Part shown: piece by piece, positions 25,452 through 33,693 of the stretch
Position numbering within the stretch: position 1 is the first letter of the stretch
How the letters are laid out: the number at the start of each line of letters is the position of its first letter
Assembly: GCA_026398135.1 (NCBI GenBank)
Contig: JAPLTN010000089.1
Span: forward strand, 1 to 51,940
DNA length: 51,940 bases
From: Verrucomicrobiota bacterium
Lineage (GTDB): Bacteria > Verrucomicrobiota > Verrucomicrobiia > Opitutales > Opitutaceae
Reading direction: 5' to 3'
Program-made: the position numbers and the translations under genes
Notes under the pieces: generated by a model
What the model saw: only the letters and a program-made list of their open reading frames with translations
Told to the model about the DNA's origin: nothing
Database searches by the model: none

Positions 25452-26816
25452 TCAAAAATCCTGCAAGCGCTGCTCTCCCGCCCCTCGGTCCGGCTCCAGC
25501 CGGGCCACCACTTCGCCGAGCAGATAAATCGATCCGGTCACCACCAGCACATCCCCCGGCCCGCCCGCCGCGCACACGCCCGGCCCCGGAAAAAGCCCTT
25601 CCACCGTCGCCCGGTGGATTTGCCCGCCGCCCGTCGCCGCGCGCGAAAAAAACTCCGCCGGCACCAGGGCCTCCAATTCCTCAAAGGTGCTCGCCCTCGC
25701 CTGCTGGGGTCGCGCGAGGTGGATTTCCCTCGCGTGCCGCCCCACCACCGCCAGCAAGGGCGCGGCGCGGCTCACCCCCAGCACACCGGTGATCACCACC
25801 GGGCGGCGGCCGGTCTCGGTCACCAGTTTGCCCAGCAAATCATCCAGCACCGCCGCCCCCTCGGGGTTGTGCGAGGCGTCGAGCACCAGCAAACGGCCAT
25901 CGGCCAGCCGCGTGCGTTGCCAGCGCCCCGGCCAGCTCACGTTGGTCAGACCGGCTTGCAGGTGCGATTCCGTCAGCCCGAAACGCCCGGCCAGCAGCCG
26001 CGCCACCAGAGTCGCGGTGGCGGCGTTGAGGCGTTGATAATCCCCCTCCAGCCCGGCCTGAGGATACGCCGCTATGTCCTCGCCAAATACCTCGCGCACA
26101 CTGGTCAGCGGCGCGCCGCGTTCGGCCGCGATGGCCCGCACCACCGCCTCGGCCTCCAGCGGCAAGCGCCCCATGACCACGGGCACGCCCGGCTTGATGA
26201 TCCCGGCTTTTTCCGCCGCGATTTTTTCCAGCGTGTCGCCCAGCAATTCGCAGTGGTCCAGCCCGATGCTGGTGATCACGCTCACCTCCGGGAGGATGAT
26301 GTTGGTGGCATCCAGCCGCCCGCCCAGCCCGACTTCGATAATCGCCACGTCGCAAGCCCGGCGGGCAAACTGCAAAAACGCCATCGCGGTCATTAACTCG
26401 AAGAAACTCGGCGCCTCCCCCGGTGCGCCGCGCTCCAAACCCGCGACCACCGGCGCCAACTCGCCGTAATAAGCCACGATCTCCGGCTCCGAGAGCGCCA
26501 CGCCGTCCACCTGCACGCGTTCCCCCAGGCGCACGAGGTGCGGCGAGGTGTAAAGCCCGGTGCGCCGCCCGGCCGCGCGCAGGATGCTCGCCAGCATGGC
26601 GGAGACCGACCCTTTGCCGTTGGTGCCCGCGACGTGGATCAGCGGCACCGCCCGCTCCGGCTGACCCAGCAGCCGGGTAAACGCCCGCATGCGATCAATC
26701 CCGAACGACACCCCGCGCGCCTTCAGCGCATAAAGCCGCTCGCAGACGGCGGCGTATTCGGCCGGGGAAACTGGGTAAGCGCTGCTCAAAAACGGTAAAG
26801 CCTGGTTCGCGTTCAA
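25452..26816 (-). CDS. folC: Bifunctional folylpolyglutamate synthase / dihydrofolate synthase
   Basis: FolC ligates glutamate to dihydropteroate and folates. The 454-residue protein shows the Mur-ligase-type ATP loop HVAGTNGKGSVSAML (about 60-74), TSPHLVRLGERVQ, the family box IIEVGLGGRLDATN, and SIGLDHCELLGDTLEKIAAEK. The C-terminal Mur_ligase_C part includes LVLDASHNPEGA. Length is typical (420-450). It is transcribed in reverse toward tRNA-Lys; the next reverse gene, accD, lies 190 bp upstream across the cloverleaf repeat. Confidence 0.95.
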   Translation of the reverse strand: MNANQALPFLSSAYPVSPAEYAAVCERLYALKARGVSFGIDRMRAFTRLLGQPERAVPLIHVAGTNGKGSVSAMLASILRAAGRRTGLYTSPHLVRLGERVQVDGVALSEPEIVAYYGELAPVVAGLERGAPGEAPSFFELMTAMAFLQFARRACDVAIIEVGLGGRLDATNIILPEVSVITSIGLDHCELLGDTLEKIAAEKAGIIKPGVPVVMGRLPLEAEAVVRAIAAERGAPLTSVREVFGEDIAAYPQAGLEGDYQRLNAATATLVARLLAGRFGLTESHLQAGLTNVSWPGRWQRTRLADGRLLVLDASHNPEGAAVLDDLLGKLVTETGRRPVVITGVLGVSRAAPLLAVVGRHAREIHLARPQQARASTFEELEALVPAEFFSRAATGGGQIHRATVEGLFPGPGVCAAGGPGDVLVVTGSIYLLGEVVARLEPDRGAGEQRLQDF

Positions 26817-26842
26817 CGTAGCTTAATTCCGAAGCTCGAAAC

Positions 26843-26953
26843 GGTCCGGGGAGCGCACCCGTCCCGGGTGCTTAGCCGGGCGTCCCGCCCGGCGATCCGA
26901 GTTTCCGGCGGGACGCCGGAAACAGCCTGCGAGACGCAGGCGCTCCCCGGACC
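26843..26953. repeat. Five-stem cloverleaf repeat element
   Basis: A perfect 12-bp outer stem (26843-26854 with 26942-26953) encloses four perfect hairpins in series: 26855-26871 (6 bp), 26875-26893 (7 bp), 26902-26922 (8 bp) and 26925-26941 (6 bp). Every loop is five bases: GTCCC, GTCCC, GGGAC, GAGAC. Loops 1 and 2 are exact reverse complements of loop 3, so loop-loop kissing is possible. Hairpins 1 and 4 abut the outer stem with no spare base. It fills most of the folC-accD gap and codes for nothing I can see. Nature unknown: REP-type mobile palindrome or structured RNA. Confidence 0.85.
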
Positions 26954-27005
26954 CGTTAAACCAAGCTTGAACGCACATTGGAATAAGCCCCGAACCCGCC
27001 CGCCC

Positions 27006-27866
27006 TCAGGCCGCCGCCGGGGCCTTGCGCGTGTGCAGCGCGCACAGGACGCCGCGCAGGGTGTCGCGCATTTCCAGACGGGGCACGATCAGATCGATCA
27101 AGCCCTTCTTTTGCAGGAATTCAGCGGTTTGAAACCCGGCCGGCAGGGTCTGCTTGACCGTGTCCTTGATCACGCGCGCCCCGGCAAAGCCGATCAAGGC
27201 ACCGGGCTCGGCTATGTTCACATCGCCCAAAACCGCGAAACTGGCGGTCACGCCACCCATGGTCGGATGGGTCAACACCGAGATGTAGGGCAGCTTGGCC
27301 TCGGCCAGACGCCCCAGCGCCGCGCTCGTTTTGGCCATTTGCATAAGCGAGAAAATGCCTTCCTGCATGCGCGCGCCGCCCGAAGCGGAGAAGATGATGC
27401 AGGGGATTTTCTCCGCCATCGCGCGCTCGATCGCACGGGTGATCTTTTCCCCGGCGGCCGAACCCATGGCCCCGCCGCAAAACCGGAAATCCATCACCGC
27501 GACCGACACCGTGATGCCGTGGATGGCCCCGACGCCGCAAATCACCGCCTCGGGCAAACCGCTGTCCCGTTCGTATTTCTTTATCCGCTCGGGATAGGGC
27601 GCGGAATCCACGAACTTCAGCGGATCGGCCGAACGTACCGAGGCATCGTGCTCGACGAAGGTATCGGCATCGAACAGCGCCTCGATCCGGGCCGGGGCCC
27701 CGATGGGAAAATGGTAGCCGCTCTTGGCCACGACCATCTGGTTGGCCGCGAGTTCCTGATTGAAAACGACTTCGCCCGAGATCGGGCACTTCGTGTAAAG
27801 GCCCTTGGGAATGTCCTTCTTTTTGACCACTACGGTGGAATACTTGGGCGTACTGAAGAGCGACAT
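27006..27866 (-). CDS. accD: Acetyl-CoA carboxylase carboxyltransferase subunit beta
   Basis: AccD (286 residues from ATG 27866) pairs with AccA to transfer carboxyl from biotin to acetyl-CoA, making malonyl-CoA. The start was chosen because [12 protein letters not shown] suits the family; 21 upstream codons overlap the promoter gap. Crotonase-fold motifs are visible: [53 protein letters not shown]. The N-terminal zinc ribbon, normally four cysteines, keeps only one (KCPISGE...VVAKSGYHF), so zinc binding is probably lost. accA is not in the window. Confidence 0.95.
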
Positions 27867-27903
27867 AGTCACGTAAGAGGATGAATGGATGAAAGAAATG
27901 CGT

Positions 27904-28695
27904 TTAGCCGTGGCCGAAAGTGCAGACATCCACCTTCAGCGCGCCCGCCCGCCGCAGCACGGCCGCGCAGGCATTGAGGGTGGAACCCGTGGTGAAGACA
28001 TCGTCGATGAGCACATACCGAAGCTCGGGGTTAATGCCGACCCCGGGGGCGAGGGCAAACGCGTTTTTGAGGTTCGCCTGCCGCTGCGCGCGATCGAGGC
28101 TGGTTTGCGTTTGGGTGTCGATGACCCGCGCCAGCACCGCCGCGCAACGCGTCGCGCCGCCGAGCGCGCTCACCAAGGCCTGCACATACTCGCTCGCCTG
28201 GTTGTAACCGCGTTCGCGCTCCTTGCGCCCATGCAACGGCACCGGGACCAGCACCGCCCCGCGCAGGAAATCCGCCACGTGGGGATTGGCCGCGACGATC
28301 TTCGCCATGTCGCCCAGCACGTGCAGGCCCTGCCGGTATTTTAAGGTGTGCACCAGCGACCGCGCCGGGCCGCGAAACAGCACCGCCGTGCGCCCTTCGC
28401 CAAACTCCGGCCGCAAACCCTCGCAGTGCACGCAAAGCCGCTCCCCCGAGGCCTCGCCGAAAAACGGATGCCCGCAACACGGGCAACACGGCGGCTCCAC
28501 CCGCACCAACAACGGCACGCATGCCACGCACACCATCCGCAACGGACTCGCTTCGACCAGGTCGCCGCAATGCACGCACGACGGCGGAAACACCAAGTCC
28601 GCCGCCACCCGCGCCCATCCCCTCCAGCCGCCCGTCGCCGCCGCGTCCGCCGAATCCGCCGGGGCCGCTGTGCCTGTGTCTTCTAACGGTTCCAT
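27904..28695 (-). CDS. comF: ComF family phosphoribosyltransferase-like protein
   Basis: The protein has 263 residues. After a variable leader, a Cys-rich zinc region shows repeated CxxC pairs (SCVHCG, VCVAC, CCPCCG, LCVHC). A PRTase domain follows with [19 protein letters not shown] and the PRPP-binding loop [12 protein letters not shown]. ComF relatives act in DNA uptake for transformation, though many are housekeeping proteins of unsettled role. Its 5' end overlaps the truA stop by 13 bp, so truA-comF-accD may form one reverse transcript. Confidence 0.9.
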
Positions 28696-31643: not shown

Positions 31644-33693
31644 GGTTCCTCGCTGTTTTCAGTGGGTAGCTTTGGTTTGACCGCTAATGCCGCGGCTCAA
31701 TGAGCGCGGCAGAGAGCGAGTGGCTTCGCGTTGCGAAACGGCCGTGTTCGACGTTACGGCCAATGGCCTCGACATAGAGTAAAGACTTTTTGAATAAGAA
31801 ATTATCCATTTTCCCAGCGAGGCCATTGGCCGAGGAATCGACCGCGTCGGCCGACTTGGTCGGCAGGTGAAATCTCGGCGGCGGACTTTGGCTCGCCGCA
31901 TTAGCCTAAAAACGGCGATGGAAACGTGCAAAAAATGGCGCAGATGATTGAATGGCTGGAATATGCCGCCGCCAAATGAAGCACCAGCACCCAACCCTGA
32001 GGGTGAGGTAAAAACGCCCGCTACTTCCGAAGCCCCGGCGCAGCCCCCGCCAGCGCCAGCCGAGCCCCTGATCGTCGATACTCCCGGCGGTCGGTTTCGT
32101 GCCGGGTTTTCGTCCGATCTGCCGATAAGCTCCTCGGGGGCGCTGGTGTTCTTCGCGCAATTTCTGGCCGCCACCGGTGCCTTTGACGCGTTCGTGGCCG
32201 ACGCGCCCCTGAGCTACGCAAGCAACCGTGCGCACCAGCCCCGCGATATCCTCGGCACCCTGGTGCTGGGCATGATTGGCGGCCACTTCCGCTACGCACA
32301 TCTCTCGGCCCTGCGCGGTGACGAGGTCTCGCACCGCCTGCTCGGCCTGGACCGGATCGTGAGCGAAGACTGCGTGCGCCGGGCGCTGCGCCGCATCGAG
32401 CCGCAGGCCGGTGCCGAATGGCTGCGCCGTCACCTCAGCCAGACCTGTCACCAGTTCATGGATTCCAAGTGGATCCTCGACATCGACACCACCATCAAAC
32501 CCATCTACGGACGCCAGGAAGGTGCGAGCCTCGGCCACAATCCCCGGAAGCCCGGACGCCCCGGCCACGCCTGCCATACCTACTGGATCGCCACCCTCCG
32601 ACTCTGCCTCGACGTGGAGGTTCACCCCGGCGACCAGTCCGCCGCCGGCCACGGCTTCGCCGGCCTGTGGTCGCTCATCGACCAGCTGCCAGCGCCCCGC
32701 CGGCCACACCTCTTGCGCGGCGATTGCGCTTACGGCCAGGAAGCCCTGCTATGCGCCGCCGAGGCCCGCAGCCTGCACTACCTCTGAAAACTCCGCCGCA
32801 CGACCAAGGCCCGCGACCTGATCGGCTGGCTCGAACGCGACACCACCACCCGCTGGATCGACGCCGGCCAAGGCTGGCAAGGCGTGGCCGGCCAGCTCCG
32901 CCTCCATGGCTGGAGTCGTTCCCGCCGCGTGATCGTGTTACGCCGCCGCCTTGAGGAAAAAACCCACCCCCGCGCCCGCCGCCGCCTGGAAAAGGCCTGC
33001 GAAACCGGCCTTTTCCTTAAAACTCCAGACGCCGCCGCCTGCGAGCCACTGGTTTATGAACACCAGGTGCTCGTGACCGACCTGCCCTACGAGATCCTCA
33101 CCCTGGCCACCCTGTATCGGGAACGTGGCGATGCGGAAAACCCCTTCGACGAGTTGAAAAAACAGTGGGGCTGGGCCGGCTTCACCACCCAGGCGCTCGC
33201 CCCCTGCCAGCACGCCGCCCGCCTCGGTGCCCTGATCTACAACTGGTGGACGCTCTACCACCGGCTCCTGCGCCCCGGCCAGCACCACGAAGCAGTGAGC
33301 ACCCGCCCCCGGATGCTCGCCGGTGCGGCCCGCCAGACCGCGCACGCCGGCCAGCGCCGCCTGGAAGTGCGCCTGAGCCACGCCGAAGCACCCCGCCTGC
33401 AGCAAATCATCCTGGTGCTGGCCAAGTGGTTGCAGGAACTCATGCAAGCTGCGGAGCAATGGAAATCCGCCCAACGCTGGCATAAGATCACCGCCCGGAT
33501 TTTGCGCGAAAACTTCCCCGCGCCCGGTCCAGAGCCCCCGCTCAACGCAGCACCTGCGTAACTTCCTCGCAAGGCATAGCCCCTGCCTTCGTCAAACCGC
33601 CGCGCCCCGCGCGCCGGTCACACTTCCTATCGCCGTTTTTAGGATTAGCGGTTCTTTCCCGGTCTTTGCACCCACTCAAAACAGCGAAGAACC
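31644..33693 (+). mobile_element. IS1380-like insertion sequence, 2050 bp
   Basis: Terminal inverted repeats of 24 bp with two mismatches lie at 31644-31667 (GGTTCCTCGCTGTTTTCAGT...) and 33670-33693. Both flanks carry AATTAGAA as an 8-bp direct repeat. Known IS1380 members usually duplicate 4-5 bp, so 8 is longer than expected. Between the left end and the transposase is about 320 bp of leader with no gene. The single transposase frame is interrupted by TGA. The element sits between the rhodanese gene and the Ton operon, about 300 bp ahead of exbB. Confidence 0.88.
31963..33561 (+). pseudogene. IS1380 family DDE transposase interrupted by an in-frame TGA
   Basis: From ATG 31963 the frame runs 274 codons to TGA at 32785-32787, then continues in the same frame to 33561, 532 residues in total. 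Before the stop are ILDIDTTIKPIYGRQEGA (first catalytic Asp), HNPRKPGRPGHACHTYW and LRGDCAYGQE (second Asp). After it comes LYRERGDAENPFDELKKQW, the YREK-type box with the catalytic Glu. The stop falls in YL-stop-KLRRT, where relatives have an aromatic residue; a G-to-A change in TGG would explain it. All three acidic residues would be present in a read-through product, but as written the protein is split. Confidence 0.88.

Follow-up and report, generated by a model that had tools for sequence, protein, structure and literature searches.

The window analysed here is the whole 51,940-nt stretch of contig JAPLTN010000089.1, from an Opitutaceae genome of 3.39 Mb in 117 contigs (hereafter G000), in which two genes of the same orientation, accD and folC, are separated by a strongly structured sequence (Table 1). 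The core of this structure, positions 26843-26953, reads as GGTCCGGGGAGC, four hairpins and GCTCCCCGGACC, and is the conserved part of a longer gained stretch. In agreement with the first-pass annotation of this DNA, the loops are GTCCC, GTCCC, GGGAC and GAGAC, hairpins 1 and 4 join the outer stem without a spacer, and the outer stem measures 12 bp, ViennaRNA returning the complete cloverleaf; of the stem lengths then given (6, 7, 8 and 6 bp), those of hairpins 1, 2 and 4 hold, and hairpin 3 has instead 9 bp with a 5-base loop. In each loop one extra G-C pair can be closed, so that the stems become 7, 8, 10 and 7 bp long and carry triloops. The stretch 26823-26973 folds at -57.4 kcal/mol with DNA parameters and at -93.6 kcal/mol with RNA parameters (z = -7.65 and -7.31, respectively), a value reached in 0 of 200 shuffles, and z ranges from -7.3 to -8.4 over all the cloverleaf folds computed. 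The cloverleaf is, therefore, a real fold. At the gathering score, Rfam recognizes two tRNAs only in the whole window and no family at the cloverleaf, and below threshold the best E value for 26700-27050 is 0.36; furthermore, the 111-bp core has no match in phage or plasmid collections and the exact 29-nt unit pattern none in viral contigs. Elsewhere in the window, at 31948-33561, a DDE transposase split over two ORFs represents a broken insertion sequence, the first ORF scoring 45.2 bits against PF13701 and the second 18.3, below the cut-off.

Table 1. Features of the cloverleaf and of its neighbourhood, in window positions.
Feature	Positions	Strand	Evidence
folC, downstream neighbour	25452..26816	-	TIGR01499, 330.5 bits (cut-off 162.65)
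Whole stretch gained relative to G003	26794..26979	.	186 bp; aligned to G003, where the accD-folC site is empty
Left arm	26794..26842	.	~49 nt; fold of 26794-26981 on both strands; arm-like matches elsewhere
Left half-unit (outer strand, hairpin 1, hairpin 2, tail)	26843..26904	+	Covariance-model match, 76.7 bits, E 2.1e-13; belongs to the model's alignment
Outer stem, 5' strand	26843..26854	+	ViennaRNA fold; 94.4% of cells paired in full-element helix 1, rows chosen partly by ends
Hairpin 1	26855..26871	+	ViennaRNA fold; 99.0% of cells paired in full-element alignment, helix 2
Hairpin 2	26875..26893	+	ViennaRNA fold; 96.0% of cells paired in full-element alignment, helix 3
Right half-unit, inverted relative of the left	26892..26953	-	Covariance-model match, 81.4 bits, E 2.0e-14; belongs to the model's alignment
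Hairpin 3	26901..26923	+	ViennaRNA fold; 94.7% of cells paired in full-element alignment, helix 4
Hairpin 4	26925..26941	+	ViennaRNA fold; 96.2% of cells paired in full-element alignment, helix 5
Outer stem, 3' strand	26942..26953	+	ViennaRNA fold and full-element alignment
Right arm	26954..26979	.	~26 nt; G003 alignment and fold on both strands
accD, upstream neighbour of the insertion	27006..27929	-	TIGR00515, 371.7 bits (cut-off 317.45)

The cloverleaf is built from a half-unit of 62 nt, in which GGTCCGGGGAGC precedes a 7-bp hairpin and, after a single base, a ~10-bp hairpin with a short tail; a second half-unit, in inverted orientation, completes the structure. The first-pass annotation had proposed to look with a covariance model for many copies elsewhere and for covarying stems, and both are found. 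A DNA search of G000 gave 38 matches, including full and half copies, and a covariance model of the half-unit (R1), built from 51 rows, detected at least 44 units in this genome at E<=0.01, a lower bound because 150 of 5,027 first-look candidates were scored. As read from the coordinates, these units form 12 pairs and 20 singles at 32 sites, and in all of the 12 pairs the outer strands face outward, that is, there is one arrangement, the cloverleaf. The single units are most simply explained as broken pairs; REPINs would predict the singles to be more decayed, and the median score is 76.15 bits in pairs versus 70.9 in singles (p=0.056). Of 100 Opitutaceae genomes, among them G000, 21 have units at E<=1e-4 and the other 79 have none at this threshold, many of the genomes compared being fragmented assemblies. 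The R1 scan at the same threshold revealed at least 53 units each in G061 and G077, the latter with many alike cloverleaf copies provided with arms (L224-L233, L259-L288); several copies of G077 coincide with the ends of contigs, where they may have interrupted the assembly. Among 84,980 species genomes the 29-nt pattern was found in 36 stretches, the titles of which name Verrucomicrobiota taxa. The cloverleaf is thus apparently one copy of a small, dispersed and mobile repeat.

Covariation of the stems is observed both in half-units and in full elements. In the 51 half-unit rows, which had been screened for stems beforehand, 99.5% of the 867 cells of 17 pairs are paired, with a covariation score of 0.556 versus 0.166 in shuffled rows and at most 0.106 with slid partners. 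In the 30 full-element rows, of which 29 were picked by end and apex sequence and one (L239) was added by hand, some loci having been fetched through R1 and picking by ends favouring the outer stem, 95.8% of 1,380 cells are paired, some of them as G-U; the score is 0.343 versus 0.111 in shuffled rows, and both sides have changed in 23 of 46 pairs. The apices are mostly versions of CGTCYCG and the right half shows the complement. The same alignment bears on the earlier idea that loops 1 and 2 could kiss loop 3, as in a recombination or replication structure: the complementarity is indeed present in the copy of the window (GTCCC/GGGAC), but it is already explained by the right half being an inverted copy of one apex, and the variable third base of the loops has no excess of matches between left and right halves over the 30 full elements. 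Matches were counted in 16/30 for hairpins 1 and 3, 10/30 for 1 and 4, 12/30 for 2 and 3, and 8/30 for 2 and 4 (Fisher p = 0.70, 0.14, 1.0 and 0.05, respectively, the last pointing towards mismatch). A kissing-loop structure is, on this evidence, hardly credible.

The comparison with related species indicates how the element came to lie between accD and folC. In G003, whose AccD is 99% identical to that of G000, the site is empty, and so it is in G007. Fourteen genus members have an accD match; the gap was compared in 13 of them, G000 included, and the element is absent, as read by eye, from all of the 12 others; G012 and G013 have other small palindromes there. With the site empty in these relatives as well, the simpler reading is a gain in G000. 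Only GG is common to both edges of the insert, the ends of which are consequently ambiguous by 2 bp. The TTG start listed for folC at 26816 falls within the insert, and the start in common with G003 is probably the TTG at 26789-26787, as judged from the alignment, so that the insert ends 4 nt before it. This position between two genes of the same orientation, together with the strong fold on both strands and with stems that covary including some G-U pairs, is what a structured RNA or mRNA element (a stabiliser, an attenuator or a processing signal of the accD-folC transcript), kept for its function, would display. Such an element is nevertheless improbable, being absent from the same gap in the 12 relatives, dispersed at other genomic sites and without a matching Rfam family. 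The cloverleaf may secondarily affect the accD-folC transcript; as for a discrete structured RNA, nothing supports it, although it is still conceivable.

The gained stretch extends beyond the core on both sides as two arms that together lengthen the outer stem (CGTTCAA/TTGAACG). Querying G000 with the joined arms returned 19 arm-like rows, of which 7, at 6 sites, adjoin units and 12 lie away from any unit. Eleven of these 12 were read: nine enclose a pair of GTAG-type repeats (GGCCGGGGACGGCC), one encloses a single copy and in the last, a 15-nt match, no repeat is visible. GGCCGGGGACGGCC repeats with cloverleaf-like arms are seen in G000 at L240, L242, L244, L245, L248, L251, L252, L254, L256 and L257, and the repeat is of the kind flanking L053, one of the RAYT genes of this genome. 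The occurrence of similar arms around unrelated repeat pairs in the same genome means that core and arms are separable modules. In G077 the arms are quite different (TACTGAG...CTCAGTA) and recur with the core in 18 rows, 16 of which have 175-176 nt between the searched motifs, for a recurring stretch of ~184 bp; L270 and L273 have the left flank in common, and palindromic outer flanks occur at two sites, L225 and L261. Three of the 12 pairs of G000 show no visible arms (L009, L015, L020) and L010 has a weak right arm only. Of the features of DDE MITEs, inverted arms are thus present at some copies, and no constant target duplication is seen by eye in the 18 rows of G077 or, beyond the GG, at accD-folC.

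A core lying in different palindromes, and one kind of palindrome holding different repeat pairs, points either to insertion into palindromes or to a carrier. Insertion of other REP dimers into the middle of palindromes is described in the accessible text of PMC3733652. In the second case a distinct palindromic element, of which the arms are the termini, would be moved by a DDE transposase or by another Y1 transposase (possibly the RAYT of the GTAG-type repeats), and the cloverleaf core would merely ride in its centre. This would account for the inclusion of the arms in the stretch gained at accD-folC, for the GTAG-type pairs inside similar arms at 9 of the 11 other sites read and for the recurrence of core plus arms, with similar palindromic ends, in 16 of the 18 rows of G077. 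It remains an unlikely explanation because a constant target duplication is missing by eye in G077 and at accD-folC, three of the 12 pairs of G000 are armless and a fourth has only a weak right arm, the core is conserved between G000 and G077 while the arms differ, the RAYT-bearing forms inside alaS described below have units with no arms seen, and an arm pair without core, that is, a match spanning the junction, occurs in 0 of the 19 rows of G000 and in 0 of the 59 rows of a second joined-arm query, although 12 of the former rows have no unit nearby.

The transposase was sought among the Y1 genes, five of which are found in G000 at E<=0.001. The canonical RAYTs of this genome, L052 and L053, were rejected as direct partners since their flanks carry other repeats, namely, by eye, GTAG-bearing repeats of other sequence; L053 may have an indirect role, its type of repeat having arms in common with the cloverleaf. 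A long, multi-copy Y1 (L051/L055) was also set aside, no unit being present in 29 loci of its relatives elsewhere, and it is still the second candidate: a degenerate unit (19.3 bits, E 0.038) abuts the stop codon of L055, good units lie ~110-155 bp behind the copies L086 and L173, which look like one inherited cluster, and in total, of the five copies in G000 and G003 whose 3' end is visible, three (L055, L086, L173) have a unit behind the stop. Many relatives of the long Y1 have instead the GGGACAGG motif upstream.

Searching for Y1 genes beside units in the relatives led to a RAYT in G016 which, used as query against 200 Opitutaceae genomes, had matches in six of them. In G112, G087 and G125 units are found on both sides of the RAYT, 4-16 nt from the aligned 148 residues and oriented as in the cloverleaf, and in G061 there is a unit at 16 nt on one side and a whole pair at 36 nt on the other; the flanking units of these four genomes score 66.5-77.8 bits. 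In G016 a unit of 62.6 bits is present on the one visible side, the other side being the contig end. The sixth match, in G192, is weak and has other repeats. All five RAYTs pass, narrowly, the NCBIfam model NF047646 (REP_Tyr_transpos; 81.5-84.1 bits, cut-off 80). The HVH and the Y of FxYI, which we take to be the HUH motif and the catalytic tyrosine of these RAYTs, are invariant in the four that were aligned, so that the proteins have the features of the RAYT class. In IS200/IS605 elements, too, a Y1/HUH transposase acts on hairpin ends, but these RAYTs fall far below the cut-off of NF033573 (22.8-29.0 bits versus 55). The genomes with a unit-associated RAYT also carry units elsewhere, except G125, whose two units are both the flanking ones. 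The presence of units beside a RAYT in five relatives makes the cloverleaf resemble a RAYT-bearing element minus its gene. The initial suggestion of a REP-like palindrome moved by a RAYT transposase is therefore sustained by the copies, the covariation, the empty site and the RAYTs beside units, and falls short at one point: no relative of the unit-flanked RAYT occurs in G000 at E<=1e-20, and for this reason the mobiliser of the window's own copies can only be inferred.

These RAYTs have an unusual location. In G112, G087, G125 and G061, a single open frame of 1,127-1,164 aa comprises alanyl-tRNA synthetase and the RAYT with its end units; in each of the three chains scanned, Pfam finds tRNA-synt_2c, Y1_Tnp and tRNA_SAD together, Y1_Tnp being just below the cut-off in one of them (22.2 versus 23). 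In G016, where the contig is broken, the RAYT is fused with the second half of alaS, and the alaS matches of this genome are two pieces on two contigs. The alaS-borne RAYTs with in-frame terminal repeats (L174-L178) come from five genomes, representing four genera, and occupy the same loop. This loop is bounded by an FGxT motif and YDTYGFP and has 21-88 aa in 20 other genomes read, the motifs not being matched in five further genomes. Congeners without the insert are G071 and G104 (of G125), G020 (of G087) and G084 (of G016 and G112), and four changes are required to explain the four complete carriers on a 23-row AlaRS tree, which would mean either that the insert was gained repeatedly or that it was repeatedly lost with precision. 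Identity among the four RAYTs is 62-78%, and dN/dS is 0.08-0.28 when all five are compared, some pairs being close to saturation at synonymous sites; purifying selection on the RAYT in alaS is thereby indicated, albeit not well measured. In-frame RAYTs are not confined to alaS. In G016 (contig C1), L158:667-2859 has a RAYT in frame inside an ORF, with a creatininase domain to the sides of the RAYT, and single-hairpin pairs (GGGAGCGCGGGCGTCCCGCCCGC), whose apex is the same, stand on either side of it; in G192 (contig C2), the ORF that holds the RAYT of L179:418-2916 in frame has a chorismate-binding domain at its end, and this RAYT has yet other repeats, encoding GMGVSPM-type peptides.

We tentatively consider, as a possibility rather less likely than not, that the transposase of this family is made only as an internal domain of AlaRS, and that a transposon translated in frame, transposase and ends alike, has repeatedly lodged in a single tolerant loop of an essential gene, where it would be hard to lose and from which it would mobilise cloverleaf derivatives in trans. 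If true, this would be a homing-like element, neither intein nor intron, in which the hairpin ends double as protein linkers. A search of literature listings and openly accessible text gave no description of the cloverleaf family or of a RAYT inside alaS.

Among described systems, the nearest designs in the accessible parts of the literature are REPINs and RAYT genes with long self-complementary flanking repeats (PMC3116915, PMC2817692, PMC6006769, PMC8266576, PMC3733652). REPINs are REP doublets forming hairpins (PMC3116915, as far as accessible) and, like them, the cloverleaf is an inverted REP-like pair with a spacer, of similar size, linked to a RAYT and accompanied by singles thought to be remnants; the recurring inverted doublet is seen in G000 (12 of 12 pairs convergent, beside 20 singles), and the RAYT flanked by the same repeats in relatives, on both sides in four and on one visible side in the fifth. 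Unlike REPINs, the unit is a double hairpin without the GTAG consensus, and the 12-nt outer strand pairs across the doublet, which yields a cloverleaf instead of one long hairpin. The inverted repeats flanking a RAYT gene and dispersed in the genome recall GTAG REPs and REPtrons (accessible text of PMC2817692 and PMC3733652), but these units have two hairpins and lack the GTAG/GTRG head, GT[AG]G occurring in the first 20 nt of 1/51 units and GTAG anywhere in 1/51.

TIRtrons or TIRYTs also have a RAYT-type gene between long, sometimes self-complementary, non-GTAG inverted repeats, some of which are dispersed as dimers and some of which have GGGGWSAS in common, according to the accessible text of PMC3733652; the unit consensus, GGGGAGCG, is one base off this motif, and the unit could still be identical with one of the TIRs of that work, of which the text was compared. 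A repeat pair centred in a longer palindrome is described there for GTAG-15 of A. variabilis and CGTC-1 of H. neapolitanus as well, whereas in G000 two unrelated repeat pairs have similar arms in one genome. The tetranucleotide CGTC is common to the cloverleaf and to CGTC REPs (PMC3733652, accessible text), but it lies at the hairpin apex and not in an unpaired terminal tag, and the unit has two stems, of 7 and ~10 bp, instead of a single one of 8-9 bp; no transposase gene flanked by CGTC repeats is reported in the accessible part of that article. Among the genomes of the same source, O. terrae is reported to have the most intragenic GTAG repeats.

On the whole, we favour, with a probability of roughly 0.7, the explanation that the cloverleaf is a non-autonomous RAYT-type mobile DNA element that operates in the manner of a REPIN. 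It has at its ends two REP-like units in inverted orientation, each combining a 12-nt outer strand with two hairpins of CG-TCY-CG apices, and would fold into the cloverleaf when single-stranded, for example on the lagging-strand template; a Y1/HUH transposase acting in trans would recognize the hairpins of the ends, cleave and religate the strand, and bring the element to a new site with no true target duplication, this site apparently often being the centre of a palindrome already present, which would provide the arms. Movement, which we infer from comparison of genomes, would in G000 have been driven by the alaS-RAYT lineage or by a related Y1 since lost or undetected. Against this explanation stand the absence of a RAYT relative from G000 at E<=1e-20 and the fact that only five of the 21 unit-bearing genomes are so far known to have the RAYT. 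In addition, the moved or recurring stretch exceeds the cloverleaf (186 bp at accD-folC, ~184 bp in G077) with arms that differ, and a carrier palindrome could have brought the core as a passenger, given the GTAG-type pairs in similar arms. Units follow the stop codon of the long Y1 in 3 of the 5 copies from G000 and G003, but in none of the 29 loci from other relatives, and the difference in decay between pairs and singles is borderline.

The finding touches two open questions, how REP sequences move and why RAYT genes persist. The family provides a two-hairpin substrate without the GTAG consensus, together with a matching RAYT, making the rules of recognition testable on a new design, and the empty and filled pair of species and the many alike copies of G077 are further assets for such tests. 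Finally, the RAYT in frame inside alaS, with its dN/dS of 0.08-0.28, suggests an unexpected way to keep such a transposase.
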